The notes under the pieces are model-generated. The model was not told the DNA's origin, did not search any database, and saw nothing but the letters and a program-made list of their open reading frames with translations. Source: Bacteroidales bacterium (lineage in GTDB: Bacteria > Bacteroidota > Bacteroidia > Bacteroidales > UBA932). Taken from it: a stretch of 13,727 bases of DNA. The stretch is from assembly GCA_017561265.1 (NCBI GenBank), contig JAFZDJ010000104.1:1-13727 (forward strand), given 5' to 3'. Positions within the stretch are counted from its first letter, which is position 1, and each line of letters opens with the position of its first letter. A program made the position numbers and the translations under genes. Below, one piece after another: positions 1 to 13,727 of the stretch.

Positions 1-186
1 CGCGATATCGTTCTTCGGAAGTCTGGTGACAAACTCCACATCGATTCCGTAATTTGCGAGCGACACGGCCACATTAGCCTCACCGCCACCGAATGTGGCA
101 TCGAACTGCTTTACCTGAGAAAAACGGAGATAGCCCGGCGTAGAAAGGCGAAGCATGATTTCTCCGAATGTTATTACTTTAGCCAT
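1..186 (-). CDS. kdgK: 2-dehydro-3-deoxygluconokinase (PfkB family), N-terminal 62 codons only
   Basis: This is the start of a sugar kinase that runs off the left edge; exactly 62 codons are visible. The N-terminus (MAKVITFGEIMLRL) and a glycine-rich GGGEANVA segment at residues 33-40 followed by VSLANYG are typical of the PfkB/ribokinase fold, and of KDG kinases in particular. The family phosphorylates 2-keto-3-deoxygluconate to KDPG with ATP in the cytosol. No signal peptide is present. The start is the ATG at 184-186, 11 bases after the kduI stop, with only a weak GGAAT upstream. Its place after kduI and kduD supports KdgK over fructokinase or ribokinase, because KDG is the product of KduD. 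The ATP-binding C-terminal half and catalytic Asp are outside the window, so integrity cannot be judged. A KDPG aldolase gene (kdgA) may follow downstream. Confidence 0.9.
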   Translation of the reverse strand, partial: MAKVITFGEIMLRLSTPGYLRFSQVKQFDATFGGGEANVAVSLANYGIDVEFVTRLPKNDIA

Positions 187-197
187 ATTCCAAAATT

Positions 198-1139
198 TTA
201 TCTCATTTCAGTATAAGGAATCTCATCTTTGTCGCCGTAGTTGAGGTTTTCGCCGCCCATTCCCCAGATGAACATATAGTTGCTGGTTCCTGCAGCTGCA
301 TGTATAGACCACTCTGGTGAAGTTATCGCCTGTTCGTTCTGCATCCATACGAGGCGCTGCTGCTTAGGCTCGCCCATGAGGTGGCAGATCGCGTTGCCAG
401 GAGTAACGTTGAAATAGAAGTATGCCTCCATACGGCGCGTATGCGTGTGTGCCGGCATTGTGTTCCACACTGAACCCGGCTTGAGCTCTGTAAGACCCAT
501 CTGAAGCTGGTTGGTTCCGCCTCCCTTTACCTTGCTGAGAACAGAACTTACGATAAGCTGGTTGACTACACGGTCGTTGCTGTCTTCCATCTTTCCGTAC
601 TTATCAGACTGGGCGATAGCGTACTTCTTTGGGTCGGCATTCTTGTCTGTCGTGATAAGCTGAGTCACATACTCCTTGTAGGCTGGTGTAGAGTTGATGT
701 AGAATTTTGCAGGATTCGCCGGATCCACACTTCTGAAGGTTACTTCCTTCTTTCCACATCCTACATAGAGGCCTTCCTTGAATGTCATAGGATATTCCTT
801 ACCGTCCACGGTTACTATGCCGTCTCCGCCGACATTTATCACTCCAAGCTCTCGTCTGTCGAGGAAGTGCTCTGCCTTGAGCTCGTCAAATGTCTCGAGA
901 GCGAGTGTCTGGTTCACCGGCATGATGCCACCATATATGAGGCGGTCATATAGGGTATAAGTCAGATTGATCTCGTCTGGAGACATTACCTTTTCCATAA
1001 GGAATGCGCTACGCAGACGCTCTGTGTCATAATGCTTTACGTCATCGGGATGACAAGCTGTCTGAACTCTATAGTTCAACTGTGCGTTTGCTGCCATTGT
1101 CATAAGGCTCATTAATGTGAATAAAATTGTTTTCTTCAT
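198..1139 (-). CDS. kduI: 5-keto-4-deoxyuronate isomerase (4-deoxy-L-threo-5-hexosulose-uronate ketol-isomerase) with signal peptide
   Basis: KduI converts 5-keto-4-deoxyuronate to 2,5-diketo-3-deoxygluconate in pectin breakdown. The 313-residue protein matches the family along its whole mature length: EKV.SPDE near 49-56, [12 protein letters not shown] at 64-75, [12 protein letters not shown] at 94-105, then the cupin core. The four zinc ligands expected from E. coli KduI are present as H231, H233, E238 and H280. E. coli KduI is about 278 residues; the excess here is mostly an N-terminal extension, MKK plus a hydrophobic stretch ending ANA|Q, which looks like a signal peptidase I site after residue 19. 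Family homology begins right after it. This implies a periplasmic enzyme, unlike the usual cytosolic KduI. It starts 4 bases after the EIIC gene and is followed 11 bases later by kdgK. The function call is firm; export is a prediction. Confidence 0.95.
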
Positions 1140-1143
1140 ATTG

Positions 1144-2550
1144 TTACTGTTGATTATTATCTGTCTCAGAGGCCTTCTGGTATCTGATGATAGCCCTGCG
1201 GTTGAGGAACATTAGGAACATTGTCATGAGTACAAGGATGCTCACTCCGATCCACTTGAGAGAATACGAAAGGTGGAAGATCACCCAGGCAAGAGGGCTT
1301 GAAGCGAAGTCGAGAGAACCTCCGTCAAATCCTGCAGGAATCGCAACGGCCGCATCGCCTGTCTTTGAGAACACGTCCTGTGCAGCCTGTGTGAAGAACG
1401 GAGCAAGGTCGGTCACAAAGTAAAGTCCTATGAGCATCAGCACCAGACCGATAATGAAGGTCTTGGGTATGTTGCCTTTTGTTATAGGGAGAATCAGCGG
1501 GAATACATAGAACATTCCGGCAAGAGATGCAAGAGGCAGGAACTCGTTCCCCGGAAGCACTACTGCAAGGATGAGTGTCACAGGGATGAGCAGGAGTGAT
1601 ACTACGAGTGTGGCAGGATGGCCGATTACCAACGCCGGACTCATTCCGATGTTCAGTCCCTTGGCTCCCTTGAATTTTCTGTCAATCAGCTCGCGTGTCG
1701 CATCAGAGATCGGCTTAAGACCTTCGATGAACAGCGAAGTGATACGCGGGATAAGTTCCATTACTGCTCCCATCTTTATTCCAAGTCCGAGGATATAAGG
1801 AATCTTGTCAGCTATTTCTTTCCAGCTCTCGCAAGACAGTGAACCGATTATGATTCCGACCAGGATACCGAGGAAGAGAGGCTCTCCGAGGAGACCGAAT
1901 TTCTTCTTCATTCCTTCCGCGTCGATGTCAAGTCTGTTGATACCTGGAATCTTGTCCAGACCTTTGTTCAGAACCTCAGCGACAGGTACGAAACCTTGGC
2001 AGAAAGGCTGCGGGATGGAGATTCCGTCCATCTTGTCATAGAATCGCTGGAATCTCTCTGCAGTATAGTCAGCAAGGATCAGGGTTATGATATAGCAGAT
2101 GATAGCTGCGAAAAATCCCCACCATATGTTGTCCGAAGCAAAATATACTATGGCTCCTATGAATGCGAAATGCCAGTAGTTCCACAGGTCTATATTGACG
2201 GTCCTGGTAGTCTTTGTTACCAGCATGAGTATGTTCACTCCAAGACATACAGGTATGATGAAGGCTCCGACAGAGGTGTTGTATGCCACAGAGGCAGCTG
2301 CAGGCCATCCCATATCGAAGACCTTCAACTGCAGCCCGTAGATTTCAACCACCTGGCTGAGAGCAGGTCCGAGGGTACTTGTCAACAGTGAAGTGATTAC
2401 TGAAAGCCCGACGAATCCGACTCCTACGATAAGCCCGCTCTTGAGGGCCTTGCTGAACTTGATGCCGATGCAGACGCCCAGAATCGTGAAGATAATAGGC
2501 ATCATTACGGCAGCACCTAGTCCGATTATGTAACTAAATACTTGTTCCAT
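1144..2550 (-). CDS. PTS EIIC permease, galactitol (GatC) family, no partner subunits nearby
   Basis: This 468-residue polytopic inner-membrane protein has about ten or more hydrophobic segments. It resembles E. coli GatC (about 451 residues) over its full length. Shared landmarks are [10 protein letters not shown] near 16-25, VGFVGL at 44-49, DMGWP at 79-83, [13 protein letters not shown] at 115-127, KIPGINR at 200-206, FGLLGEP at 218-224, PALVIGH at 305-311 and VLPGN.FLP at 331-339. GatC is the translocating subunit of the galactitol PTS and normally needs EIIA and EIIB. None is encoded in the window and none is fused here, as both termini are accounted for by membrane segments and short tails. 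Most Bacteroidota lack a sugar PTS, so it may work as a facilitator or ion-coupled carrier. Lying 3 bases after kduD and 4 bases before kduI, it most likely imports a ketodeoxyuronate or related uronate. The family is firm; the substrate is inferred. The symbol gatC is withheld because galactitol is unlikely. Confidence 0.9.
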
Positions 2551-2553
2551 ATG

Positions 2554-3348
2554 TTATTTGGGCTGTTTACCGATATAAGCGAGGATGCCTCCGTCTACAT
2601 ATAGGATATGTCCGTTCACAAAATCTGAGGCATTTGAAGCAAGGAATACGACAGGTCCCATGAGATCATCAGGTGTTCCCCAGCGTTCTGCAGGAGTCTT
2701 TGCCACAATGAACGAGTCGAACGGGTGTCTGCTGCCGTCTTCCTGACGCTCGCGAAGCGGGGCAGTCTGCGGAGTAGCTATGTAGCCGGGGCCGATACCG
2801 TTGCACTGTATGTTGTATTGGCCGTATTCCGAAGCAATGTTTCTTGTGAGCATCTTGAGGCCTCCTTTTGCCGCTGCATATGCAGAAACGGTTTCACGGC
2901 CGAGCTCGGACATCATTGAACATACATTGATGATCTTTCCGGCTTTTTTCTCCATCATTCCAGGAAGTACCGCCTTTGCACATATATAAGGTGCAACAAG
3001 GTCAATATCAACCACCTGACGGAACTCTTCTGCAGCCATCTCATGCATCGGGATGCGCTTGATTATGCCGGCATTGTTCACCAGAATGTCTACAGGTCCC
3101 AGAGTAGCTGCTATATCGGCTACCATTGCCTTCACACCTTCTTCATCGGTGCAGTCACATATATATCCTTTGGCTTCGATTCCAAGTGCCTTGTACCCTT
3201 CAAGCGCCTTGTCCATATTGGCCTGTGTACGGCAGTTGAATGCTATTTTTGCGCCAGCCTCGGCAAGCGCCTGAGCCATTGCGAATCCTATTCCGTAAGC
3301 GGCTCCGGTCACAAGTGCGACCTTGCCTTCAAGAGAAAAATTTACCAT
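2554..3348 (-). CDS. kduD: SDR-family 2-dehydro-3-deoxy-D-gluconate 5-dehydrogenase (KduD-type)
   Basis: This 264-residue classical short-chain dehydrogenase/reductase carries the cofactor motif TGAAYGIG (14-21), NNAG (91-94), catalytic S144, Y157 and K161 (YAAAK), and a VDGG segment near the C-terminus. There is no signal peptide, so it is cytosolic. KduD reduces 2,5-diketo-3-deoxygluconate to 2-keto-3-deoxygluconate (KDG), the step after KduI. Close relatives are often labelled gluconate 5-dehydrogenase, and sequence alone does not separate the two; the kduI and kdgK neighbours decide in favour of KduD. The residues after the second strand are N38-C39-R40, without the acidic residue that marks strict NAD use, so the cofactor is open. 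It begins 38 bases after the GH43 stop with no strong Shine-Dalgarno, and its stop lies 3 bases before the EIIC start. Confidence 0.87.
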   Translation of the reverse strand: MVNFSLEGKVALVTGAAYGIGFAMAQALAEAGAKIAFNCRTQANMDKALEGYKALGIEAKGYICDCTDEEGVKAMVADIAATLGPVDILVNNAGIIKRIPMHEMAAEEFRQVVDIDLVAPYICAKAVLPGMMEKKAGKIINVCSMMSELGRETVSAYAAAKGGLKMLTRNIASEYGQYNIQCNGIGPGYIATPQTAPLRERQEDGSRHPFDSFIVAKTPAERWGTPDDLMGPVVFLASNASDFVNGHILYVDGGILAYIGKQPK

Positions 3349-3386: not shown

Positions 3387-5213
3387 TTATTCCGTTACAT
3401 TGACCCAATCTATCTGTACCCATCCGCTATCATTTTTAGATGCGAAGCGATTGCAATACAGACCGAACTTAGCTCCAATCCATTTTCCAGATCGGCCTGT
3501 GAACGGTTTTTCAGTAAGTTCTGTCCATTTCTTTCCGTCAAGGCTGTAGAAGAATCTGGCTGTAAGATCCGGTACATTGCCGTTTCTTTCCTTCGGTTCC
3601 ACATCCATCTTTATGAATACATCAGCTGCCTTGTAAGCAATAGGTGATACAGGAGGAACTGTGGTGGAAATGTATTTGTTGGAATATGGCTTGGGGAGAG
3701 GGGTGAAGTCAACGGTGACCGTCTTCAGAATCTGTTCCTGCGTGCCCTTCAATGCATCTTTGCATTCTACATACTGAAGGATGATACCTTCCGAAGTGTC
3801 TGTCAATCTTATTGTGGCATAGTCCGTACCCATCAGTACGAATCCGCAGTTCTCTCCCCTTTCCTTCAGTTGCGGGTTAGGAACGAAACGAAGCTTTGCC
3901 GTCACTGTAAACTTATCAGCAGGGGTCTTCTGCATGAGCAGATTCGGTGAGTCTCCGAGATTGTGCCATCCTTCTGCCTGATCCACGGAGTAAAGCCTCA
4001 GTGCTCCAAGTCCTTTGGTATGGGTCTCAGTGGCTCCTGCATCCAGATAATACCAATAAGGTGAAGGGACTCCGTGCCATTGCCACTGCAGTCCGAGCTC
4101 TGTACTGCAGAAAGTATCGCTTTCAACAGGCTGGAAGACTCCCGAACTTTTCAGGGCAGGCTTCCTGTACTTTTCTACAGGTTCTCCTACTCCGTCGCCA
4201 TCATCATCCACACCTATTACAGGCCATTCCTCGGCATTCCACTTCATTGGTTGGAGATGTACCACTCGTCCGTATGCATCCTTGTCCTGGAAGTGTATGA
4301 ACCAATGTTCTCCGGAAGGAGTATCTACCCAAGCTCCCTGATGTGGTCCGTTGACCAAGGAACTGCCCTGAGCCATTACGACTCTTTCCTGGTATGGTCC
4401 GAATGGGCTTGCTGCCTTGAGTACTACCTGCCAGCCCGTAGAAACCCCTCCTGCAGGAGAGAAGATATAGTAGTTGCCTTTATATTTATAGAATTTGGTA
4501 CCTTCAATGGTTGGCTGGGTTTCGTGGCCGTCATATACAATGCGGCTGGGGCCTGTCAGTCTCGTCCCGTCAGGAGACATGGGAGCTACGAAGAGTACGC
4601 TCTTGTGTCCGGCACGACTACCGGCACATCCGTGCGAGAGGTATGCCTTGCCATCCTCGTCCCATAACGGGCATGGGTCGATGAAACCTTTCGCCTTCAC
4701 CACCCACACCGGATCTTCCCAACGTCCGCGAGGATCGGATGTCTTCACCATGAAGATACCCCTGTCGGGATCTCCGCAGTAGATATAGAATTCTCCGTTG
4801 TGATAGCGTATGGCCGGTGCCCACACTCCGTTGCCGTGCTGAGGGATTGTCCGCCATTCCAGCTGACCTGGTGGAGGCGTATCCGGGGTGTCAAGTTTCT
4901 GCCCGATGGTCTCCCAATGCCTTTCGTATGACCAGTTCGGGCCTGGATAGTCAGTCAGTGCAGCGCCAATTATCTCCCAGTTCACAAGGTCTGTGGAGTG
5001 TAGTATCTGCAGGCCGGGGAAACATCCGAAAGAGGAAGATGTCATATAGAAGTCTTCACCTACACGGCATACATCCGGGTCAGAGTAATCTGCATTGATG
5101 ACAGGGTTGACATAGTGGGTGCCTCTGTCTGGATTCCAGCTTTCTGATGGCTGTTGAGCCGCTGCAGCAAATGATAGGCCGGCCATAACGCCGGCAACCA
5201 ATATATGCCTCAT
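3387..5213 (-). CDS. Glycoside hydrolase family 43, two-domain, exported (beta-xylosidase / alpha-L-arabinofuranosidase)
   Basis: This 608-residue enzyme has a signal peptide ending near AAAAQQ (residues 1-20). No lipobox is present, so it is probably periplasmic. The five-bladed propeller fills about residues 33-355. The expected catalytic triad is visible: base D45 in YSDPDV, pKa-modulating D179 in GFIDP, and acid E237 in PTIEGTK. WAPAIRYHNGEFYIY at 131-145 is also typical of GH43. An acidic glycine-rich stretch (DDDGDGVGEP, 336-345) precedes a C-terminal beta-sandwich at about 360-606, as in xylosidase-type GH43 proteins. Activity is expected on terminal arabinofuranose or xylose. In this pectin setting, arabinan or arabinogalactan side chains of rhamnogalacturonan I, or xylose on xylogalacturonan, are likely targets, but the sequence does not choose among them. 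The start is the ATG at 5211-5213, which begins the signal peptide; it lies directly after two hairpins. Confidence 0.95.
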   Translation of the reverse strand: MRHILVAGVMAGLSFAAAAQQPSESWNPDRGTHYVNPVINADYSDPDVCRVGEDFYMTSSSFGCFPGLQILHSTDLVNWEIIGAALTDYPGPNWSYERHWETIGQKLDTPDTPPPGQLEWRTIPQHGNGVWAPAIRYHNGEFYIYCGDPDRGIFMVKTSDPRGRWEDPVWVVKAKGFIDPCPLWDEDGKAYLSHGCAGSRAGHKSVLFVAPMSPDGTRLTGPSRIVYDGHETQPTIEGTKFYKYKGNYYIFSPAGGVSTGWQVVLKAASPFGPYQERVVMAQGSSLVNGPHQGAWVDTPSGEHWFIHFQDKDAYGRVVHLQPMKWNAEEWPVIGVDDDGDGVGEPVEKYRKPALKSSGVFQPVESDTFCSTELGLQWQWHGVPSPYWYYLDAGATETHTKGLGALRLYSVDQAEGWHNLGDSPNLLMQKTPADKFTVTAKLRFVPNPQLKERGENCGFVLMGTDYATIRLTDTSEGIILQYVECKDALKGTQEQILKTVTVDFTPLPKPYSNKYISTTVPPVSPIAYKAADVFIKMDVEPKERNGNVPDLTARFFYSLDGKKWTELTEKPFTGRSGKWIGAKFGLYCNRFASKNDSGWVQIDWVNVTE

Positions 5214-5285: not shown

Positions 5286-8200
5286 TTAGTTCGAGTGGAA
5301 CTCGATCTTGTAGAATCTCAGTCCGTTACCTGTAGGGTAGATTCTGACTGCACCGGCCTTGATATTGAATTCCACCGGTACTGCGCCGTTTGAGCTTGAA
5401 TAACCTCCAGGAAGAGATTCTGGCTCACCATCGCCTACCTTTACGGTAACCATTCTTGTGAGATCCTCAGAACTTCCTGTATTTGAAGCGTATACGGTGA
5501 GTTTTCCTGCAGACTCTGTAGTGAATTCAAAGTAACGTGTAGTTCCGTCGCTCTTTCCTCCTGGCTGCCAGTAATAGGTTTCTCCTGACTTGTTCCATTT
5601 GATGGATCCGCCACCAGAAACGACCTTGAGTCCGTTTACCTCAAGATTCCAGTTGCTGTCGTTTGTGTTAGCTGCAATACCGCTTGCGTTCATTGCATCC
5701 ACCCACTCAGGAGCAGAGAAGTCCCATACATAGTCAACCCCGGCAGGAGCGCCTTCGAGAGCATCGTAAATGATACCGTAGAAGTTGATTCCATTGTTAA
5801 GAACCACCTGGATATCACCCGCCTTGACGTCTACTACTACATATGGGAACGCCGATGCATCACCTGCAGTGAACTTGTCTGCATCCTTGATGACTGTCGG
5901 AGCAAGTATTTCCTTGTCGCCCTGCATCAATGCCATCGTACGGTCGGTAGCGGATGAGTTCGCTGAACGTGCGGCAATGTAAAGCTTACCGTCATCAGGT
6001 ACAGTGATGGTCATGGTCTTGCTGTCGGATGTCTTCGAACCTTTGAGGCGTGAACTGTACTGATCGTATTCTGATGCTCCAGGAACCGCAAATTTCTGAG
6101 AGTTAGCGTCGATGACCCATCCTCCGGTAGTCTTGACATAGAATCCTGCGTTGTTTTCACAGACATATTTTTCTTCAGCATTGGCTGCATCAGGGAAGGC
6201 AAGGCTATATCTTACGACCTTGATACCAGGTTCATCAGGCACATCATTTACATGGAATGAGAGTTCAGCAGGCTGTGATTCTACGCGTGTGTAGTCATCT
6301 GTTGCAGGAACTGCTGTAACCTGGATGGTGAAGTCTCCGCCAGCCTCTTCTACCGCATAACCGGATGTCTCGAAAGAGTAAGTGGTCTCAGTGACATTCT
6401 TGATTTTTCCGTCTACGCTTACATTGTATGAACCGGCATAGTCGATTGCATCCCAGGTAAGAGTGATGGTTTCTTCAGCTCTTTCATTTACTACAGTCTT
6501 GCTGATCTTTACATCAGGGGTAGCAAGAACCTTGTCAAGAACCTGTGTGTCTGCGGTCCACTGAAGGAATGTCATTGTTGCAGGGTGACATCCGTAGATG
6601 TAGATCATACTTTCCTGAGAGATGGATGCAAAAGTGACTTTCTGGTACTCTGCACCGGCAGCCACTGCTGCTGAAATCTTTCCGTCAAGGCTCACCACAA
6701 GATTTGAATGGCCTGCAGCTTCAGCTGTAGAGATGATGATTGAGCCAGGCTCGTTCACCTTGATGCCGATAGCACCGTCAACCGGGATGCCTTCTGCATC
6801 AATAGTTGCTTCACCTGTGAACTCGAAACCTTCCTTAGTGAAGCTGATAGGAGTGTTCTTTACGTAGAAGCGGATGCCGTCACGTACCATGTCCTTGTCA
6901 GCAACTTTCTTGAAGGTCTGACCATCAGTGAGATCCCACTCCTTGCCTGTAGCAGTCACCTCCTGAGTAAGGTCTTCAGGAATCTCTACATAAGCGGCAT
7001 ACCATCTTGGGTCACCTGCATTTGCCTCAACGACTTCCTTGCTGGTAATATTGTATTTGTCACGTGCGCTGTCGACACAAGGGTCAACATTGAGTTCGTA
7101 GCTCTCGTTTACAAGAATGCGTGCACGCCCCTCGTCAGCAGCAGCCTTAAGGTCATCGCCAGAAAGTGACGAACCGTCCTTCTGTGCGACAAAGAATCTG
7201 TCGTAGCAGTTATAGAAGAAGTTGTCCGAAAGCTCTGTAGGGAATGCAGAAGTAGAGTTCTTCGCAATGAGGCAGCATCTCTTGTTGTCGTCATTCATGT
7301 TGAGGAACACGTTGTGTGTCAGTACGAATGTCGGAGCAGCACCGGCTGCATTAAGAGCACGGATATTGAAGATACCGTTATTGTTACCATTGTTTGCAAA
7401 GCAGAGGTTGTTGAATGTACAGTGTGTGAGCTTGATTGACTCGAGGACTGTCTTCGCGTCGATACGGAACCATGTGCGGGCACCCGTATTAAGTGTCGAA
7501 TTGATGAATTCAATGCTGTTTACACTGGCTGTGCCGCGGAAGTCGAAGCAGTCGCCGCCATCACCTGTAACGTTATTGACCTCAACACCGTCATATCTGA
7601 TGGAACCCACAGACGGACCTTTGGAATTCTCGTAAAGAACTCCGCGGAGGTAGTTATTGAGCTTGCAGTTCACGACTGTGATGCTCTCCATAGCAGCAGC
7701 AGCATCGAATGTAAGGTTGTGAGGATAGTCGGCAGAACCGAGGCCGTCGAATGTGAGGGCTTCGAGATGGATGCTTGTAACATCTGCACCGATCTTAAGT
7801 CCACCCTGGATTGTCGGCTGAGCTCCTTCTGCAGTAGCATCACCATAAATCGCTACCGGACCACCGAGAACAACACTACCGATTACATAAGGAGTCTCAG
7901 AATATGCCACCTTGATGACTGCAGCCTTGTCAGCGATAGCCTGGATGAGAGCCTCTGAAGTAGCAACCTCTGTCGCTCCTTCGATTGCAGGACGGGTCCA
8001 TGCGGAAACCTGTCCACGGTCAGCACTCTTGAAGTGTACTGCGAGGGTATAGTTCACAGATGGCTTGAGACCTGTCACCTCAACCTGAGCAGCTGCAACT
8101 GCATTTGCATCTACATCGAAACGGGTGTACTCCTCATCTGCATTGAGAGCAGGAGTCACGCGGATATGGTCTACCTCTTCATCCTTAGTCCACTTGATTG

Positions 8201-8654
8201 TGATTGAAGATTCCGATCTGTCCACAAGCTCTGGATTGAGAGAAGACTTGATTGCGTATGTCTGGAGACCACGGTCAAATACTGCCCAGTTGGAGTCTGC
8301 AATCCTGCCTTCTCCGTTTACAGCCTTTACACGCGCATAATAGGTCATATCTGCCTCGAGATCCGCAGTATATGGGATATCGGTTGCAGGAATAGTAATT
8401 GACTCTACAAGAGCACTCATCTGCTCGTCAGAGTAAAGTTCGAGAACGAACTCTGTAGCTCCCTTGGACTTGGTCCATGAGAATTCGATAAACTCTCCAT
8501 TGATGACCTTGGCAGAGAGTTCTGTAGGAGTAAGGCATCGTCCGAGAGTGATATCGTCGTTGATGTCAACCATCTCCTCGGTGCAGCTTGAGAAAGCCGC
8601 TCCGAAGGCGATGAGTGATAATCCCAATATTATTGCTGAAAATAATCTTTTCAT
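5286..8654 (-). CDS. Large surface lipoprotein: FN3 repeats, beta-helix (DUF4957/DUF5123-like) and C-terminal carbohydrate-binding-like modules
   Basis: This gene occupies the SusE/SusF position after susD. The chosen start is the ATG at 8652-8654 (1122 residues), which gives MKRLFSAIILGLSLIAFG and a lipobox ending in C24, followed by acidic residues typical of surface-exported lipoproteins. A start at 8684 would overlap susD and add a non-signal leader. Approximate domains: FN3-like 38-128 and 135-225; right-handed beta-helix 225-552 with recurring strands such as ESITVVNCKLNN, NSIEFINSTLN and ESIKLTHCTFNN, closing at NAGDPRWY as in DUF5123 proteins and Bacteroidota pectate lyases; beta-sandwich 562-702 opening EWDLTD; a third FN3 710-802; and two more beta-sandwich modules 812-965 and 974-1122 ending FYGIIYD and FYKIEF. 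No complete pectate lyase or GH28 active site is recognisable, so a glycan-binding role at the cell surface is more likely than catalysis. Thirteen bases separate it from susD. Domain borders are by eye. Confidence 0.82.
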   Translation of the reverse strand: MKRLFSAIILGLSLIAFGAAFSSCTEEMVDINDDITLGRCLTPTELSAKVINGEFIEFSWTKSKGATEFVLELYSDEQMSALVESITIPATDIPYTADLEADMTYYARVKAVNGEGRIADSNWAVFDRGLQTYAIKSSLNPELVDRSESSITIKWTKDEEVDHIRVTPALNADEEYTRFDVDANAVAAAQVEVTGLKPSVNYTLAVHFKSADRGQVSAWTRPAIEGATEVATSEALIQAIADKAAVIKVAYSETPYVIGSVVLGGPVAIYGDATAEGAQPTIQGGLKIGADVTSIHLEALTFDGLGSADYPHNLTFDAAAAMESITVVNCKLNNYLRGVLYENSKGPSVGSIRYDGVEVNNVTGDGGDCFDFRGTASVNSIEFINSTLNTGARTWFRIDAKTVLESIKLTHCTFNNLCFANNGNNNGIFNIRALNAAGAAPTFVLTHNVFLNMNDDNKRCCLIAKNSTSAFPTELSDNFFYNCYDRFFVAQKDGSSLSGDDLKAAADEGRARILVNESYELNVDPCVDSARDKYNITSKEVVEANAGDPRWYAAYVEIPEDLTQEVTATGKEWDLTDGQTFKKVADKDMVRDGIRFYVKNTPISFTKEGFEFTGEATIDAEGIPVDGAIGIKVNEPGSIIISTAEAAGHSNLVVSLDGKISAAVAAGAEYQKVTFASISQESMIYIYGCHPATMTFLQWTADTQVLDKVLATPDVKISKTVVNERAEETITLTWDAIDYAGSYNVSVDGKIKNVTETTYSFETSGYAVEEAGGDFTIQVTAVPATDDYTRVESQPAELSFHVNDVPDEPGIKVVRYSLAFPDAANAEEKYVCENNAGFYVKTTGGWVIDANSQKFAVPGASEYDQYSSRLKGSKTSDSKTMTITVPDDGKLYIAARSANSSATDRTMALMQGDKEILAPTVIKDADKFTAGDASAFPYVVVDVKAGDIQVVLNNGINFYGIIYDALEGAPAGVDYVWDFSAPEWVDAMNASGIAANTNDSNWNLEVNGLKVVSGGGSIKWNKSGETYYWQPGGKSDGTTRYFEFTTESAGKLTVYASNTGSSEDLTRMVTVKVGDGEPESLPGGYSSSNGAVPVEFNIKAGAVRIYPTGNGLRFYKIEFHSN

Positions 8655-8667
8655 AATTGTCGTTGAT

Positions 8668-10542
8668 TTAGAAACCATAGTCATTGAAGAGAGTTCCCTG
8701 GCTGTTCACGAGAGTTGCCTCAGGGATCGGCCACCACTGCTTGGTGTCAGGGTCGATGTCATAGAACGAATCAAGCTTCTTCTGCGCTGATTCGCTGTAT
8801 GTACCGGTTTCCTCTGAAATGAACTTGAAGTATGTAGAAACCTCACCCTTTGAGTCTGTATAGCACTCCCAACCGTCTCCTGCAGGAGCAGCATCGGTAG
8901 TCGCAGTCTCATTGTAGCCATAAGTCTCAATAGAACCATCAGCCGCATATCTGTACCATACTGCAGGGCCGAACTGTGCACCAGCGTTGTCCATCCATGC
9001 CTGAAGTTCTGCCTTTGACTCGTCCATCTTGGTCTTGAGGAGATTCCAGCGGATGAGGTCCTGCTTACGTAGCATCTCACCCACGAATTCAAGAGCACGC
9101 TCGTCAACGATTGCATTGAAGATGGCATCCTGACCGCTGAGTCCGTTGACATAAGATGAAGCTATTCCTTCATTGCCCTTGTATGCTCTCTGGCGGACCT
9201 GGAGGAGGCAGTTCTTTGCAAAGTTCTCGTCACGGTTTCCGCATGCAGGATCGTTGGCGATTTCGGCTGCCATGAGGAGAATGTCTGAATATCTCATATA
9301 TACCGGCTTGATGCCGTCGTCATTTCCACCATTATACGGACTCTTGTTCTGCCACTCAAGACGGAACTTTCCGAAATACCAGTCGTTAGGACCTGCAAGG
9401 ACAGGAACGTTCTTTCCATTGGTTCCGAGGACCCATTTCCAGTTCACGCAGCTCATGTCACGGCGGACATCCTCATCCTCATACTTCCAGTAGAGAGTTG
9501 GGACAGGGCCTGCTGTTCCGCCACGGCTTGATGTCGGCCCCTGACTCCAGTCAGGATTACCTTCTGTTCTGATAGCGAATGTATAGTTCCAACGTCCACG
9601 GGTGTCGGATGAAGGGATTACATAGATGACCTCCTTGCCTGCTGTGATGTCCATGTTGTTGAACTCCTTCCAGAGCTGTGTGTAATCCATGAGGGAGAGA
9701 CCTGCATTCTCGATGATATCCTTGAGAGCCGCCAATGCCTTAGGGTAAAGTACATCCTTCTGAAGCTCAGGGTCGTTCGAGAGTCTTACTGTTCCAGGAT
9801 TTCCAGTTCCTACAAGTCCTTCGTCCGGACGGAGAGAGTATCCGGAAGCCATGAGGGCGAGGCGTGCGTAAAGTCCCTTTGCAAAAGCAAGACTCGGACG
9901 GTCGGTAGTAGCTGTAGCTGCACTCTGTCCAGGCCATTTCATATATCCGAATGCTTCTTCAAGGTCAGCAAGCAGCTGCTTGTAGATGATATCCTTGTCT
10001 GATTTGTTGAGATATATGGTCTCCGCATCGATCGGTGCAAAACGAGCGGGAACCTCTCCGTAAGCCTTGAGAAGCTCTGTATAAAGAAGAGCACGGGCTG
10101 TCAGCGCCTCACCAAGCAGTTCTGCCATATCTGCATTGATTTCAGGATTACCATACTGGCGGATTCCTCTGATGGCAAGATTGGCTCTCTCGATACCGCC
10201 CATAAGCTCGTTGTATGGACCATTAGCGAGATTGAGCTGACCGTTTGTGGCTGTCTGAGAGTACCTTGCGATGCTTGACTTCTCATCAGCCGTCGTATTG
10301 TTGTAAATCTCGATATCGGTATTGAAACCGTACCAAGGGAGGTATCGTCCACGGTGACAGTTTGTGTGGCCGAACACTTCGTAGATTCCGAATACATTGT
10401 ATTCTGCAAGAGTGTAGTTGGAATATACCACAGACTCGTCGAATGATGACTGGGTCGGTGTCTTGAGTCCATCCTCTGAACAAGAAGTCAGGGACATGGC
10501 CGCAAGCATTCCTACACCTATGATTTTATTTATCAGTTTCAT
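8668..10542 (-). CDS. susD: SusD/RagB-family outer-membrane glycan-binding lipoprotein
   Basis: This 624-residue SusD homologue caps the SusC barrel and binds glycan at the cell surface. A lipoprotein signal ends in SLTSC with the lipidated Cys at residue 21. Family landmarks are the TPR-like helix ALTARALLYTELLKAYGEVP (146-165), YMRYSDILLMAAE (415-427), IVDERALEFVGEMLRKQDLIRW (478-499, written here as its landmark ends) and WWPIPE (603-608) followed by the terminal N-x-G-F-like end FNDYGF. It is slightly longer than common SusDs because of an aromatic-rich insert at about 505-600. It starts 13 bases after the susC stop, with GGAATTC just upstream of the ATG. The ligand cannot be read from sequence; uronate-pathway neighbours suggest a pectic oligosaccharide. 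The assignment to the family is secure. Confidence 0.97.
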   Translation of the reverse strand: MKLINKIIGVGMLAAMSLTSCSEDGLKTPTQSSFDESVVYSNYTLAEYNVFGIYEVFGHTNCHRGRYLPWYGFNTDIEIYNNTTADEKSSIARYSQTATNGQLNLANGPYNELMGGIERANLAIRGIRQYGNPEINADMAELLGEALTARALLYTELLKAYGEVPARFAPIDAETIYLNKSDKDIIYKQLLADLEEAFGYMKWPGQSAATATTDRPSLAFAKGLYARLALMASGYSLRPDEGLVGTGNPGTVRLSNDPELQKDVLYPKALAALKDIIENAGLSLMDYTQLWKEFNNMDITAGKEVIYVIPSSDTRGRWNYTFAIRTEGNPDWSQGPTSSRGGTAGPVPTLYWKYEDEDVRRDMSCVNWKWVLGTNGKNVPVLAGPNDWYFGKFRLEWQNKSPYNGGNDDGIKPVYMRYSDILLMAAEIANDPACGNRDENFAKNCLLQVRQRAYKGNEGIASSYVNGLSGQDAIFNAIVDERALEFVGEMLRKQDLIRWNLLKTKMDESKAELQAWMDNAGAQFGPAVWYRYAADGSIETYGYNETATTDAAPAGDGWECYTDSKGEVSTYFKFISEETGTYSESAQKKLDSFYDIDPDTKQWWPIPEATLVNSQGTLFNDYGF

Positions 10543-10555
10543 ATGAATTCCGGTT

Positions 10556-13500
10556 TTAGAATGTGATGTTTACGCCGACTACATAACCCCTGCTCTTTGG
10601 ATATGCTGAGCAGTCAACACCTGGAGTAAGAGGAGTCTTACGTCTGGTGTCCACTTCAGGGTCATAGCCTGAATATCTGGTGAGGCAGAAGAGGTTGCTT
10701 CCTGTTGCATATATACGGAGCTTCTGCATCTTTATCTTCATTGTCCATTTCTGTGGAAGGGTATATCCGATGGTAGCAGACTGGAGACGGAGGAAAGAAC
10801 CGTCCTCGACTGCCCAGTCAGAGAATATCGCCTTGTTTACACCTGGATTCCACATTGTAGTTCCGGCATTGATCTGAGCAAGACGATCCGGATCGGTAAT
10901 CTCCTCTCCTGTAGCCCAGTCGATGTTGGTCCAGCGGTTTGCCACATTCATTGATGAAAGGAGGTTGCGGTTCGAATACTTTCTGGAGTGACTGAACTCG
11001 ATCTTGTTGGCATTGTATATATTGTTGCCGAAGACATAGTTGAAGTTAGCAGAGAAGTCGAAACCGTAGAGGTAACCGGAAAGGTTGAATCCGCCGACTC
11101 CGAGTGGCTGTGCATTGCCGATGATGGTCTTGTCGTCTACAGTGATCTTGCCGTCACCGTTCATATCCTTGAGCTTCATGGCTCCCGGACGGAAGAATTC
11201 CTTTCCGAGGATGTCAGATGCGTCTACAGTACCTTCATTAGCCACCCATGCAGATCCGTTATGAGTGAATTCGTCTGTAGAATAACGGCCGTCAGAGATA
11301 TATCCGTACATGTCGCCGAGAGGTCGGCCGACAGTCACGACATAGTCAGGGCCGATCTCGGTAGAAGCCCACTCTGATGTTGCTTCGATTTTTTCAAGTC
11401 CTCCAAGGCTGGTGACCTTGTTTTCATTCAAGCTGATGTTGCCGCCGAAGGTGAGACCGAAATTCTTCTTCTCGAATATTACAAAATTGACAGATGCTTC
11501 GAAACCGCGGTTCTGGACTGATCCGAGATTGCGGTACTGGTAATCATAACCCGAACCTGCCACAGGGAACTGGATCAGGAGGTCGTTGGTAGTATTGTGA
11601 TATACTTCGAAGGATCCGTTGATGCGACTGTTGAAGAATGCATAGTCGAGACCGATGTTATGGGATACTGTAGTTTCCCATGTGAGGTCCGGATTAGGCA
11701 TGATGGATTTTCCTCCTACAGTAGTGGTTCCCCACCAGGTGTTGCCCATGGATATCCACTGAGTCTGATTGGCCTGGAAAAGGAGTGAAGATACATTCGA
11801 AGGAATATTGTTGTTACCTGCTGTACCGTAGCTGTAGCGCAGCTTGAGGTTGTCAAGCCATGAAGCATTCTCCATCCAAGGCTCGTTGGAAATGGTCCAT
11901 GATGCGGCTCCAGACGGGAATATGCCCCACTGATTACCCTTTTCAAACTTAGATGAACCATCTGAGCGGACTGTAGCTGAAACTGCATATCGGCCGGCAT
12001 ATTCGTAGTTGGCTCTTCCGAAGAATGACAGGAGCTGTCCGTCCGGATTATAGAAATTGTTTGATGCTACAGGAGTACCTGATGCCATGAAATTCCATGC
12101 CATCTGAGAATCGAAGAATGTAGGGAATCCTTCAATTGTAGAAGAAAGAGTGTTCGATTTGGTAAGGATATACTCCTGACCCACAAGAAGATCCAGCTTA
12201 TGGTCATCATTGGCGAACACATCCGCGAAGTTATAGTTGAGAGTGTTGGTAGTACGGTAGTTTGTACGGAATTCATTCTTATACTGAGTGGCAGGCTGGC
12301 CCTTGATTGTGGCATTGTTGCCTACATAGTATGTTGTAAGTCCGTAGTAACGGTTGTCCTCCTGAGAATAATCATCCAGACCTCCCTCTATCTTGAGGTT
12401 GAGGTTCTTGATTATGTGCCAGGTAACCGATCCGTTGATAGTCCAGTTCTTGCGGATTCTTCTGTTGTCGTTATCGGCCACTGACTTCAGAGGCGGAGCA
12501 TTGTCTCCGTAATCTTCAGCAAGGTCTGAATCCGTTGCAACTCCTGTGATAGGGAAAGGAGTGTACTGGACTGCGTGCTTGAGACGTCCGTTGCTTGAAG
12601 TCGAACCGCCGTCGTTCATTGAGTTGGCTCCGGCGCCGAGGACTTCAGTGTGCGAGTATCTTGCATTTAAGTCTACAGTAATCTGCTTGATAGGCTTATA
12701 CTGTGTCTTGAAGTTGAGGTTGTCTCTCTTGTAGTCTGATCCTACCATGATGGCCTTGTCACCTACATGAGCATAACTTGCTGTCCACTTTACCTTGTCT
12801 GTAGATCCCGACACGGAGAGGTTCTGGTTGAATGTTGTTCCTACATTTCCAAAAACTTTCTTTACCCAGTCGTTCTTCTCCACATTCTTGTACAGATCCA
12901 TATCTTCGAATACTCCGAAGACCTTTACAAAATCGTCTTCCACCTTATCTCTGAGGACTGCGAGCTCGTATTGGTTCTGTACGAAATCATAAGGGGATCC
13001 GGTCTGGATGGCGTCTGCATTGGCCATAGTCTTCTGTCCCCAGTATGCATTGTAGCTTACGGAAATCTTGCCGGCTGCACCTGATTTGGTAGTCACGAGG
13101 ACAACACCGTTTGCACCTCTCGAACCGTAGATGGCAGTTGAGAAGGCATCCTTGAGGACATCGATGGACTGAATATCGGATGCAGGTATGTCAGAAATGC
13201 TTTCTACAGGGAAACCATCTACAATGTAAAGAGGGGAAGCATCCTGAGTGATTGAACCTCCACCGCGGACACGGATCTTGATTTCCGCATCAGGGTCTCC
13301 TTCGGTTGTAGTTACCTGCACACCTGCCATCTTACCTGTAAGAGCCTCTCCTACAGTCGCTACGGGCACCTGTGTGAGAGCTTCGTTTCCTACAGATGTC
13401 ACAGAACCCATAAGGTCGCGACGTTTTACAGTAGCATAACCGATGACTACAGTTTCGTCAAGGAAATTGGAATCCTCATCGAGGACAACATTGACAGTCG

Positions 13501-13727
13501 TAGAATTTCCTATGACCACCTCTTTCGTTGCCATACCGATCATCGAGAAAACAAGTGTCTTTCCCTTTGCAGAAGGGACATCGATAGTGTAATCACCATC
13601 CACACCCGTAGATACACCTAAAGTTGTGCCGTCCACGAAAACGGACACGCCTATCAGCGGTTGGCCGTTTGCGTCTGATACGACACCCTTGATCTCCTGG
13701 GCATTCGCCACAAAGGCTGTGGCAAAC
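10556..13727 (-). CDS. susC: SusC/RagA-family TonB-dependent outer-membrane transporter, 5' end beyond the window
   Basis: The frame is open to the right edge. The last codons before the mature part read FATAFVANAQ, the tail of a signal peptide with cleavage near ANA|Q, so the true start lies outside the window. Counting from the GTG at 13711: carboxypeptidase-regulatory-like domain at about 6-82 (EIKGVVSDANGQPLIGVSV), TonB-box-like DETVVIGY at 85-92, plug domain with GKMAGVQV, LYIVDGFPV (161-169) and the SusC signature AIYGSRGANGVVLVTTKSG near 193-211, then a beta-barrel ending in VVGVNITF with the terminal Phe used in barrel assembly. About 1056 residues are visible, normal for SusC. It imports oligosaccharides across the outer membrane with TonB energy, as a complex with SusD encoded 13 bases downstream. 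The promoter and any ECF, hybrid two-component or AraC regulator lie outside. Confidence 0.97.
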   Translation of the reverse strand, partial: FATAFVANAQEIKGVVSDANGQPLIGVSVFVDGTTLGVSTGVDGDYTIDVPSAKGKTLVFSMIGMATKEVVIGNSTTVNVVLDEDSNFLDETVVIGYATVKRRDLMGSVTSVGNEALTQVPVATVGEALTGKMAGVQVTTTEGDPDAEIKIRVRGGGSITQDASPLYIVDGFPVESISDIPASDIQSIDVLKDAFSTAIYGSRGANGVVLVTTKSGAAGKISVSYNAYWGQKTMANADAIQTGSPYDFVQNQYELAVLRDKVEDDFVKVFGVFEDMDLYKNVEKNDWVKKVFGNVGTTFNQNLSVSGSTDKVKWTASYAHVGDKAIMVGSDYKRDNLNFKTQYKPIKQITVDLNARYSHTEVLGAGANSMNDGGSTSSNGRLKHAVQYTPFPITGVATDSDLAEDYGDNAPPLKSVADNDNRRIRKNWTINGSVTWHIIKNLNLKIEGGLDDYSQEDNRYYGLTTYYVGNNATIKGQPATQYKNEFRTNYRTTNTLNYNFADVFANDDHKLDLLVGQEYILTKSNTLSSTIEGFPTFFDSQMAWNFMASGTPVASNNFYNPDGQLLSFFGRANYEYAGRYAVSATVRSDGSSKFEKGNQWGIFPSGAASWTISNEPWMENASWLDNLKLRYSYGTAGNNNIPSNVSSLLFQANQTQWISMGNTWWGTTTVGGKSIMPNPDLTWETTVSHNIGLDYAFFNSRINGSFEVYHNTTNDLLIQFPVAGSGYDYQYRNLGSVQNRGFEASVNFVIFEKKNFGLTFGGNISLNENKVTSLGGLEKIEATSEWASTEIGPDYVVTVGRPLGDMYGYISDGRYSTDEFTHNGSAWVANEGTVDASDILGKEFFRPGAMKLKDMNGDGKITVDDKTIIGNAQPLGVGGFNLSGYLYGFDFSANFNYVFGNNIYNANKIEFSHSRKYSNRNLLSSMNVANRWTNIDWATGEEITDPDRLAQINAGTTMWNPGVNKAIFSDWAVEDGSFLRLQSATIGYTLPQKWTMKIKMQKLRIYATGSNLFCLTRYSGYDPEVDTRRKTPLTPGVDCSAYPKSRGYVVGVNITF

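Follow-up and report, generated by a model that had tools for sequence, protein, structure and literature searches.

The closest described counterpart of the locus analysed here is the KduI/KduD pathway for 5-keto-4-deoxyuronate (DHU), together with a hybrid kduI–dhuD form ('type E') that the pertinent passages of PMC12838403 assign to Bacteroidota. As far as those passages describe it, that pathway uses the same isomerase and reductase families as our locus, with kduI near a gene of the SDR family and with a kinase and an aldolase in the same genomes. The passages on Dickeya in the same paper give a pectin route with the same chemistry after DHU, but there oligomers enter the cytosol first, through TogMNAB, and DHU is made there by cytosolic lyases. 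For the glycosaminoglycan route of Bacteroides, in which GH88 enzymes act before monomer import, the relevant sections of PMC6994673 and PMC9067506 have monomers entering the cytoplasm and name no inner-membrane carrier for DHU. DHU crosses the inner membrane in that route and in ours (here, we propose, after isomerization), but our proposal adds both a carrier and an exported isomerase. Our locus lies on contig JAFZDJ010000104.1 of a Bacteroidales bacterium (assembly GCA_017561265.1), whose whole stretch of 13,727 nt is referred to below as the window. It differs from the pathway of PMC12838403, as described in those passages, in that KduI bears a predicted signal peptide and its gene adjoins one for an EIIC protein of the galactitol phosphotransferase system (PTS) family. 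We consider it likely that the locus encodes a split-compartment KduI–KduD pathway with an exported isomerase and a PTS-free EIIC carrier. The terms 'signal peptide', 'PTS' and 'EIIC' do not occur in the main text of PMC12838403, and we found no direct description of an exported KduI, or of an EIIC associated with KduI, in the open-licence literature; the KduI passages of PMC8072126, PMC5306329, PMC7953866 and PMC4891872 mention none.

In the proposed pathway, oligouronides would reach the periplasm through SusC/SusD, where exported GH88/GH105 hydrolases would free the unsaturated uronate, which would open to DHU. Exported KduI would convert DHU to 2,5-diketo-3-deoxygluconate while still in the periplasm, and the EIIC, acting as a secondary carrier or facilitator without a PTS, would take this product through the inner membrane. 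In the cytosol, KduD would then reduce it, KdgK phosphorylate it and KdgA cleave it. The proposal builds on the export signal and active-site motif of KduI, the gene linkage, the lack of three PTS components in the genomes searched and the export signals of the hydrolases, all read from sequence; from these we infer both a transport function for the EIIC and the identity of the transported species.

All window genes, seven genes and the start of a kinase gene, lie on the minus strand. The KduI gene (198..1139) encodes a DHU isomerase of 313 aa that matches the NF002091 equivalog model with 372 bits (cut-off 250), as well as PF04962. Its N-terminus reads as a typical Sec signal peptide (residues 1–19; 1083..1139), with cleavage predicted between A-N-A and Q at a site that contains no cysteine. 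The active-site motif is intact: an HxHxxxxE stretch (H231, H233 and E238; 426..449) is followed by H280 (300..302), all four of which we take, from E.coli KduI, to be metal ligands. Among the 61 EIIC-adjacent KduIs described below, the HxHxxxxE motif is kept in 60 and the motif of the fourth ligand in all. EIIC (468 aa) occupies 1144..2550 and the KduD-type reductase 2554..3348, and a kdgK-like PfkB kinase gene, cut by the window edge, is represented at 1..186 by its first 62 codons. The order kduD–EIIC–kduI–kdgK, with gaps of 3, 4 and 11 bases and an exported isomerase, had been given exactly in the original prediction.

The linkage between EIIC and KduI was followed with profile searches for KduI (NF002091) and EIIC (TIGR00827), run on 295 genomes from the order and 121 from family f53. 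KduI gave 84 matches in 80 of the order genomes and 85 in 73 of the f53 genomes. EIIC was found in eight order genomes and in 54 f53 genomes (55 loci after split matches were merged), and its hits span six family codes of the order; none of the counts includes the weak matches in G109 (20.7 bits), G409 and G468 (18 bits). Every one of the 63 EIIC hits (8/8 and 55/55) adjoins a KduI gene on the same strand, with 165 to 895 bases between the profile ends. The two sets overlap in G054, G223, G146 and G281, leaving 165 distinct KduI hits, 61 beside EIIC and 104 not. In a sample of 392 genomes from the phylum, EIIC was found only in G001, G054 and G223, all from this same order. A scan of further genomes, which overlaps in part with the two sets (for example, L067 = G022), yielded 80 EIIC loci out of at least 570 relatives. 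KduI is present in 76 of these loci and shares the strand of EIIC in each; the distance is at most 500 bp in 67 (median gap 27 bp) and 1.1–3.1 kb in nine, and KduD lies no more than 300 bp upstream in 24 of the 80. Two of the four loci without KduI in the stretch, L082 and L112, end within ∼1.7 kb behind EIIC.

Export signals were scored with a home-made and crude rule, which requires positive charge in the n-region along with a hydrophobic 8-mer and a small-x-small site. All 61 EIIC-adjacent KduIs carry a signal peptide by this rule, whereas 101 of the 104 KduIs without an EIIC neighbour are negative and none is a clear exported case. Of the remaining three, L218 is flagged only through a far-upstream start, the usual start being present too, and L188 and L197 fell outside the scoring, the former reading as cytosolic and the latter being 5′-incomplete. 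Genome G686 holds two near-identical KduI copies (L292 and L293), with EIIC visible at only one; the second copy, negative by the rule, retains a signal-peptide-coding stretch with a different beginning beside a run of N, and was counted as ambiguous. In the 80-locus scan the N-terminus is readable in 75 of the 76 KduIs, and these show a signal peptide by eye; L046 is a fragment. The usual cytosolic KduI pathway requires a KduI without an export signal, and by predicted location the window protein and all 61 EIIC-adjacent relatives depart from it. Both the KduI export signal and the coupling of EIIC to exported KduI are well supported by these sequence comparisons. The original prediction had looked for recurrence of the cassette and for joint occurrence of signal-peptide KduI and EIIC, and both expectations hold; the frequent exported KduI without EIIC that it named as a danger was not seen, the ambiguous G686 copy apart.

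The hydrophobic N-terminus could nevertheless go unused, with KduI staying in the cytosol. What speaks for this is the behaviour of a sister rule that reads the first Met only: it flags 0 of 98 KdgK/KdgA proteins and 22 of 27 CE8/GH105 proteins, but also, falsely, 30 of 115 KduD-type SDRs, in which the first Rossmann strand resembles a signal peptide. On the other side, the N-termini of EIIC-adjacent KduIs vary by genome and yet keep K/R and a hydrophobic core, with small-x-small before Gln in 54 of 60. The start of the window KduI lies 36 residues ahead of the YDT motif; for KduIs that lack an EIIC neighbour this distance is 16–19 residues almost throughout. Finally, the solved structure nearest by sequence to the window KduI is 9kd0 (461 bits). 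Its chain shows no mismatch to the mature exported KduI of B. xylanisolvens XB1A across the 287 aligned residues, and it starts where cleavage is predicted. We therefore regard an unused N-terminus as most improbable. A second entry, 9kcz, equals the cytosolic-type KduI of XB1A in 275 of 276 residues compared, and because the two entries match both KduIs of XB1A, the exported and the cytosolic-type isozyme of a single strain, or of a very close one, have been prepared; no papers naming 9kd0 or 9kcz were found in the open-licence literature.

The EIIC of the window matches PF03611 with 278 bits over profile positions 1–386 of 394, as expected of a full-length member of the EIIC-GAT family, and contains nine hydrophobic 19-mers. 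It shares this full-length match with the EIIC of the galactitol PTS (TIGR00827), for which a solved homologue exists (9u82, 270 bits), but its TIGR00827 score of 389 bits lies below the cut-off of 542, which is exceeded in none of the 295 order genomes and none of the 121 f53 genomes. It differs further in being tied to a uronate isomerase and in the company that it keeps. HPr (PF00381), EIIB (PF02302) and the EI N-domain (PF05524) were each found in 0 of the 12 EIIC genomes searched, including G001, which is 57% complete; EIIA was not sought. Positive controls for these searches came from 7, 6 and 7 of 14 genomes for HPr, EIIB and the EI N-domain, respectively. Because of the missing HPr, EIIB and EI N-domain and the score below the galactitol cut-off, the EIIC most likely operates uncoupled from phosphorylation. 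A 677-aa EIIC (P0001) with an internal repeat was set aside as a probable assembly artefact.

The source of DHU was examined through the GH88/GH105 family (PF07470), which is matched in 36 of 38 EIIC genomes tested (of 60) and in 8 of 20 tested f53 genomes without KduI (of 48). These hydrolases carry a signal peptide by rule at 29 of 30 loci and, in another reading made by eye, at 45 of 46 loci, L347 being the exception; 32 of the 46 come from four genomes with only cytosolic-type KduI. Hydrolase location was dropped as a discriminator because export signals occur in EIIC-free genomes as well. Both kinds of genome would thus seem to make DHU outside, the difference between them being the site of isomerization. 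In the 80-locus scan, GH105 lies in the stretch in 20 loci and bears a signal peptide by rule every time. In B. xylanisolvens (L078), an EIIC–KduI–MFS run is oriented divergently to genes for an exported GH105 and for pectinesterases, and P. vulgatus (L048) is alike by sequence. The description of the pectin-induced homogalacturonan polysaccharide utilization locus (PUL) 49 of B. xylanisolvens, in the part of PMC4769552 that covers it, fits the gene set beside this run; judging by gene content, not locus tags, the EIIC–KduI pair seems to sit just outside the annotated edge of PUL 49. The sole GH88-family matches of G054 and G734 look like lipoproteins, and the two in G054 adjoin a sulfatase and a heparinase II/III, a neighbourhood that points to glycosaminoglycans, not pectin. 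The linkage and the export signal support in part the distinct inner-membrane uptake module of the original prediction, but 'for pectin', as it was put, is too narrow a description in view of G054 and G734.

The history of the cassette was read from a quick tree of 165 KduIs (164 hits and the window protein, one short row having been dropped), with SH-aLRT support only and a midpoint root. The EIIC-linked KduIs fall into a single supported clade, interrupted only by the second G686 copy, and the next branch beside it is the cytosolic-type, EIIC-free KduI of G291. The labels change twice on this tree, compared with ∼50 times in shuffles. As far as this tree can tell, there was most probably a single origin of export and carrier linkage, which were afterwards passed on or lost as a unit; genera g53, g174, g355 and g356 each contain genomes with and without EIIC. 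Two independent gains of the signal peptide had been expected, since the scores of some EIIC-linked KduIs resemble those of cytosolic ones, and this idea was abandoned given the single clade. Three members of the family stand out on their own account. At L272 (G709:C381:24000-36000), EIIC contains an in-frame TAG, the adjacent KduI lacks one ligand histidine, and G709 has no GH88/GH105 match, so that the cassette appears to be decaying where its substrate source is gone. L203 (G072:C20), the additional, cytosolic-type KduI in a genome that has EIIC, sits on a long branch, and its metal-ligand motif is degenerate. L161 (G119:C350) is a very divergent paralogue (39% identity with the window protein, end branch 1.5) in a genome that has another KduI.

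Several observations, here and in the two paragraphs that follow, weigh against the proposed pathway. The 61 loci are not independent events because the clade has a single origin. At L076 (Phocaeicola faecium) the KduI with a signal peptide sits on a different contig from EIIC, and L097, a metagenome-assembled genome labelled Muribaculum, has EIIC with no KduI match in the genome. Some of the GH88/GH105 matches are weak (28 bits in G687, below 50 in G054 and G734, and 62 in G770). An exported hydrolase does not by itself require an exported isomerase, because the four genomes with only cytosolic-type KduI have exported GH88/GH105 too. In G022 (Heminiphilus faecis) the EIIC–KduI pair looks intact, yet there is no GH88/GH105 match; this organism might live on DHU produced by others. 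The same genome lends some weight to the idea that the pair serves a different uronate, with periplasmic KduI acting as an aldose–ketose isomerase on galacturonate or glucuronate and EIIC importing the keto-uronate. E.coli KduI is reportedly active on both of these sugars, and the galactitol affiliation of the EIIC would suit such a role. However, KduD, KdgK and KdgA recur among the neighbours sought (uronate reductases and dehydratases not being among them), and GH88/GH105 is matched in nearly all EIIC genomes tested, as given above. We consider a role on another uronate quite unlikely.

A second question is which molecule crosses the membrane. The EIIC-linked KduI is the only KduI found in 43 of the 54 EIIC genomes of f53 and in six of the eight in the order set. 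Among eight genomes checked individually, the sole KduI match in each of H. faecis, P. coprophilus and P. clara lies at the cassette, and that of P. faecium has a signal peptide. Because KduD is a cytosolic enzyme that needs NAD(P)H and 43 of the 54 genomes showed no further KduI, a cell with only the exported enzyme should import the isomerized product, to judge from gene content, unless DhuI is present. The alternative is that DHU itself passes through EIIC, alone or along with the diketo acid, and that exported KduI merely equilibrates the outside pool, with the decisive isomerization inside. A second, cytosolic-type KduI, which this alternative needs, is indeed found in 10 of the 54 f53 and two of the eight order-set EIIC genomes, G686 with its ambiguous copy being an eleventh f53 exception. 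B. xylanisolvens, P. vulgatus and B. congonensis likewise have two KduI matches each, one in a frame of 281–282 residues that is too short for a signal peptide (the N-terminus was read for B. xylanisolvens only). In the 43 f53 genomes and in the four single-KduI species just named, however, imported DHU would meet no isomerase unless a non-homologous DhuI supplied one, and we judge DHU import unlikely. The original prediction had counted a second cytosolic KduI in the same genome as evidence against it, and such a KduI does occur in the genomes listed; we read these as having two parallel routes.

The third point concerns the carrier. In 29 of the 80 scan loci an MFS gene is the next gene downstream of the pair, and its product could be the carrier in place of EIIC. 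Under this alternative the adjacent MFS protein is the true importer of DHU or the diketo acid, and EIIC imports something else (galacturonate, for example) or acts as a sensor. The MFS protein that comes first after kduI in these loci, and that is also present in the G001 locus, is of the galactonate-transporter type, with a model score below the cut-off. Across the two genome sets, however, MFS genes are found near 18 of 89 EIIC-free loci and near 3 of 35 EIIC loci, and are thus not tied to exported KduI, whereas EIIC stands beside all 61 KduIs scored as exported, leaving aside the ambiguous G686 copy and the mis-flagged L218. An MFS importer is accordingly very unlikely in our estimation, and EIIC is retained as the candidate carrier. 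The original prediction had further asked whether genomes with cytosolic KduI lack EIIC and use another transporter. Here the outcome was less favourable: no partner transporter is common beside cytosolic-type KduI (a same-strand polytopic open reading frame lies within 500 bp in 4 of 85 EIIC-free loci), and some EIIC genomes hold both KduI types, as described above. MFS is the largest transporter group within 6 kb of KduI, near 14 EIIC-free and two EIIC loci.

The 264-aa product of 2554..3348, whose N-terminus is the SDR nucleotide-binding strand, scores 478 bits against PRK07097 (cut-off 369) and 226 bits against the TIGR01832 kduD model, below its cut-off of 339. It would fit a DhuD-type reductase, such as the relevant passages of PMC12838403 give for Bacteroidota. 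PRK07097, its best NCBIfam model, is named 'gluconate 5-dehydrogenase', so automatic naming would mask its likely role here. At L067/L194 (G022), the upstream KduD match is confined to the terminal ∼170 residues of a 541-aa frame with a signal-peptide-like start, a fusion or an assembly fault. Upstream of the window reductase and in the same direction are a GH43 gene with a C2 domain (3387..5213; PF04616, PF17851), a gene for an FN3/DUF4957/DUF5123-type protein that follows SusD (5286..8684; PF00041, PF16318 and PF17161, the DUF5123 match lying below its cut-off), a SusD-like gene (8668..10542; PF07980) and a gene for a SusC-like TonB-dependent receptor, its 5′ end cut by the window edge (10556..13726; TIGR04056, 836 bits). 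The window SusC and SusD are 40% and 31% identical, respectively, to those of the stretch neighbouring the EIIC–KduI–MFS run of B. xylanisolvens. The nearest genome examined, G001, has the same run with proteins 90–99% identical to those of the window, in the order pectinesterase–GH105–MFS–FN3–SusC–SusD–FN3 protein–GH43–KduD–EIIC–KduI–KdgK–KdgA. SusC/SusD and GH43 lie inside the window, and the pectinesterase and GH105 are seen only in this longer locus. Its GH105-type hydrolase bears a signal peptide, and the KdgK-like kinase and 2-keto-3-deoxy-6-phosphogluconate aldolase lie downstream of KduI. The kinase, full length in G001 (346 aa, PfkB), has NF041633 as its best model, at 497 bits against a cut-off of 700 over the kinase half of the model. 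Because G001 extends the window run, hydrolase, isomerase, carrier, reductase, kinase and aldolase are found in one locus.

Taken as a whole, we favour with moderate confidence a reading in which a former PTS permease has been co-opted as a phosphorylation-free carrier of 2,5-diketo-3-deoxygluconate and the isomerase moved outside once, together with its carrier. For some Bacteroidales, the pair would then be the inner-membrane entry step that has been missing for unsaturated uronates, whether these come from pectin or from glycosaminoglycans, and perhaps also for DHU released by neighbours. If this is correct, it would provide a candidate inner-membrane carrier for the unsaturated uronates of gut Bacteroidales, a rationale for an exported isomerase and a case of an EIIC that functions without a PTS. 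The exported KduI/EIIC pair would also be a marker by which two metabolic types are told apart among the pectin and glycosaminoglycan users of one genus.

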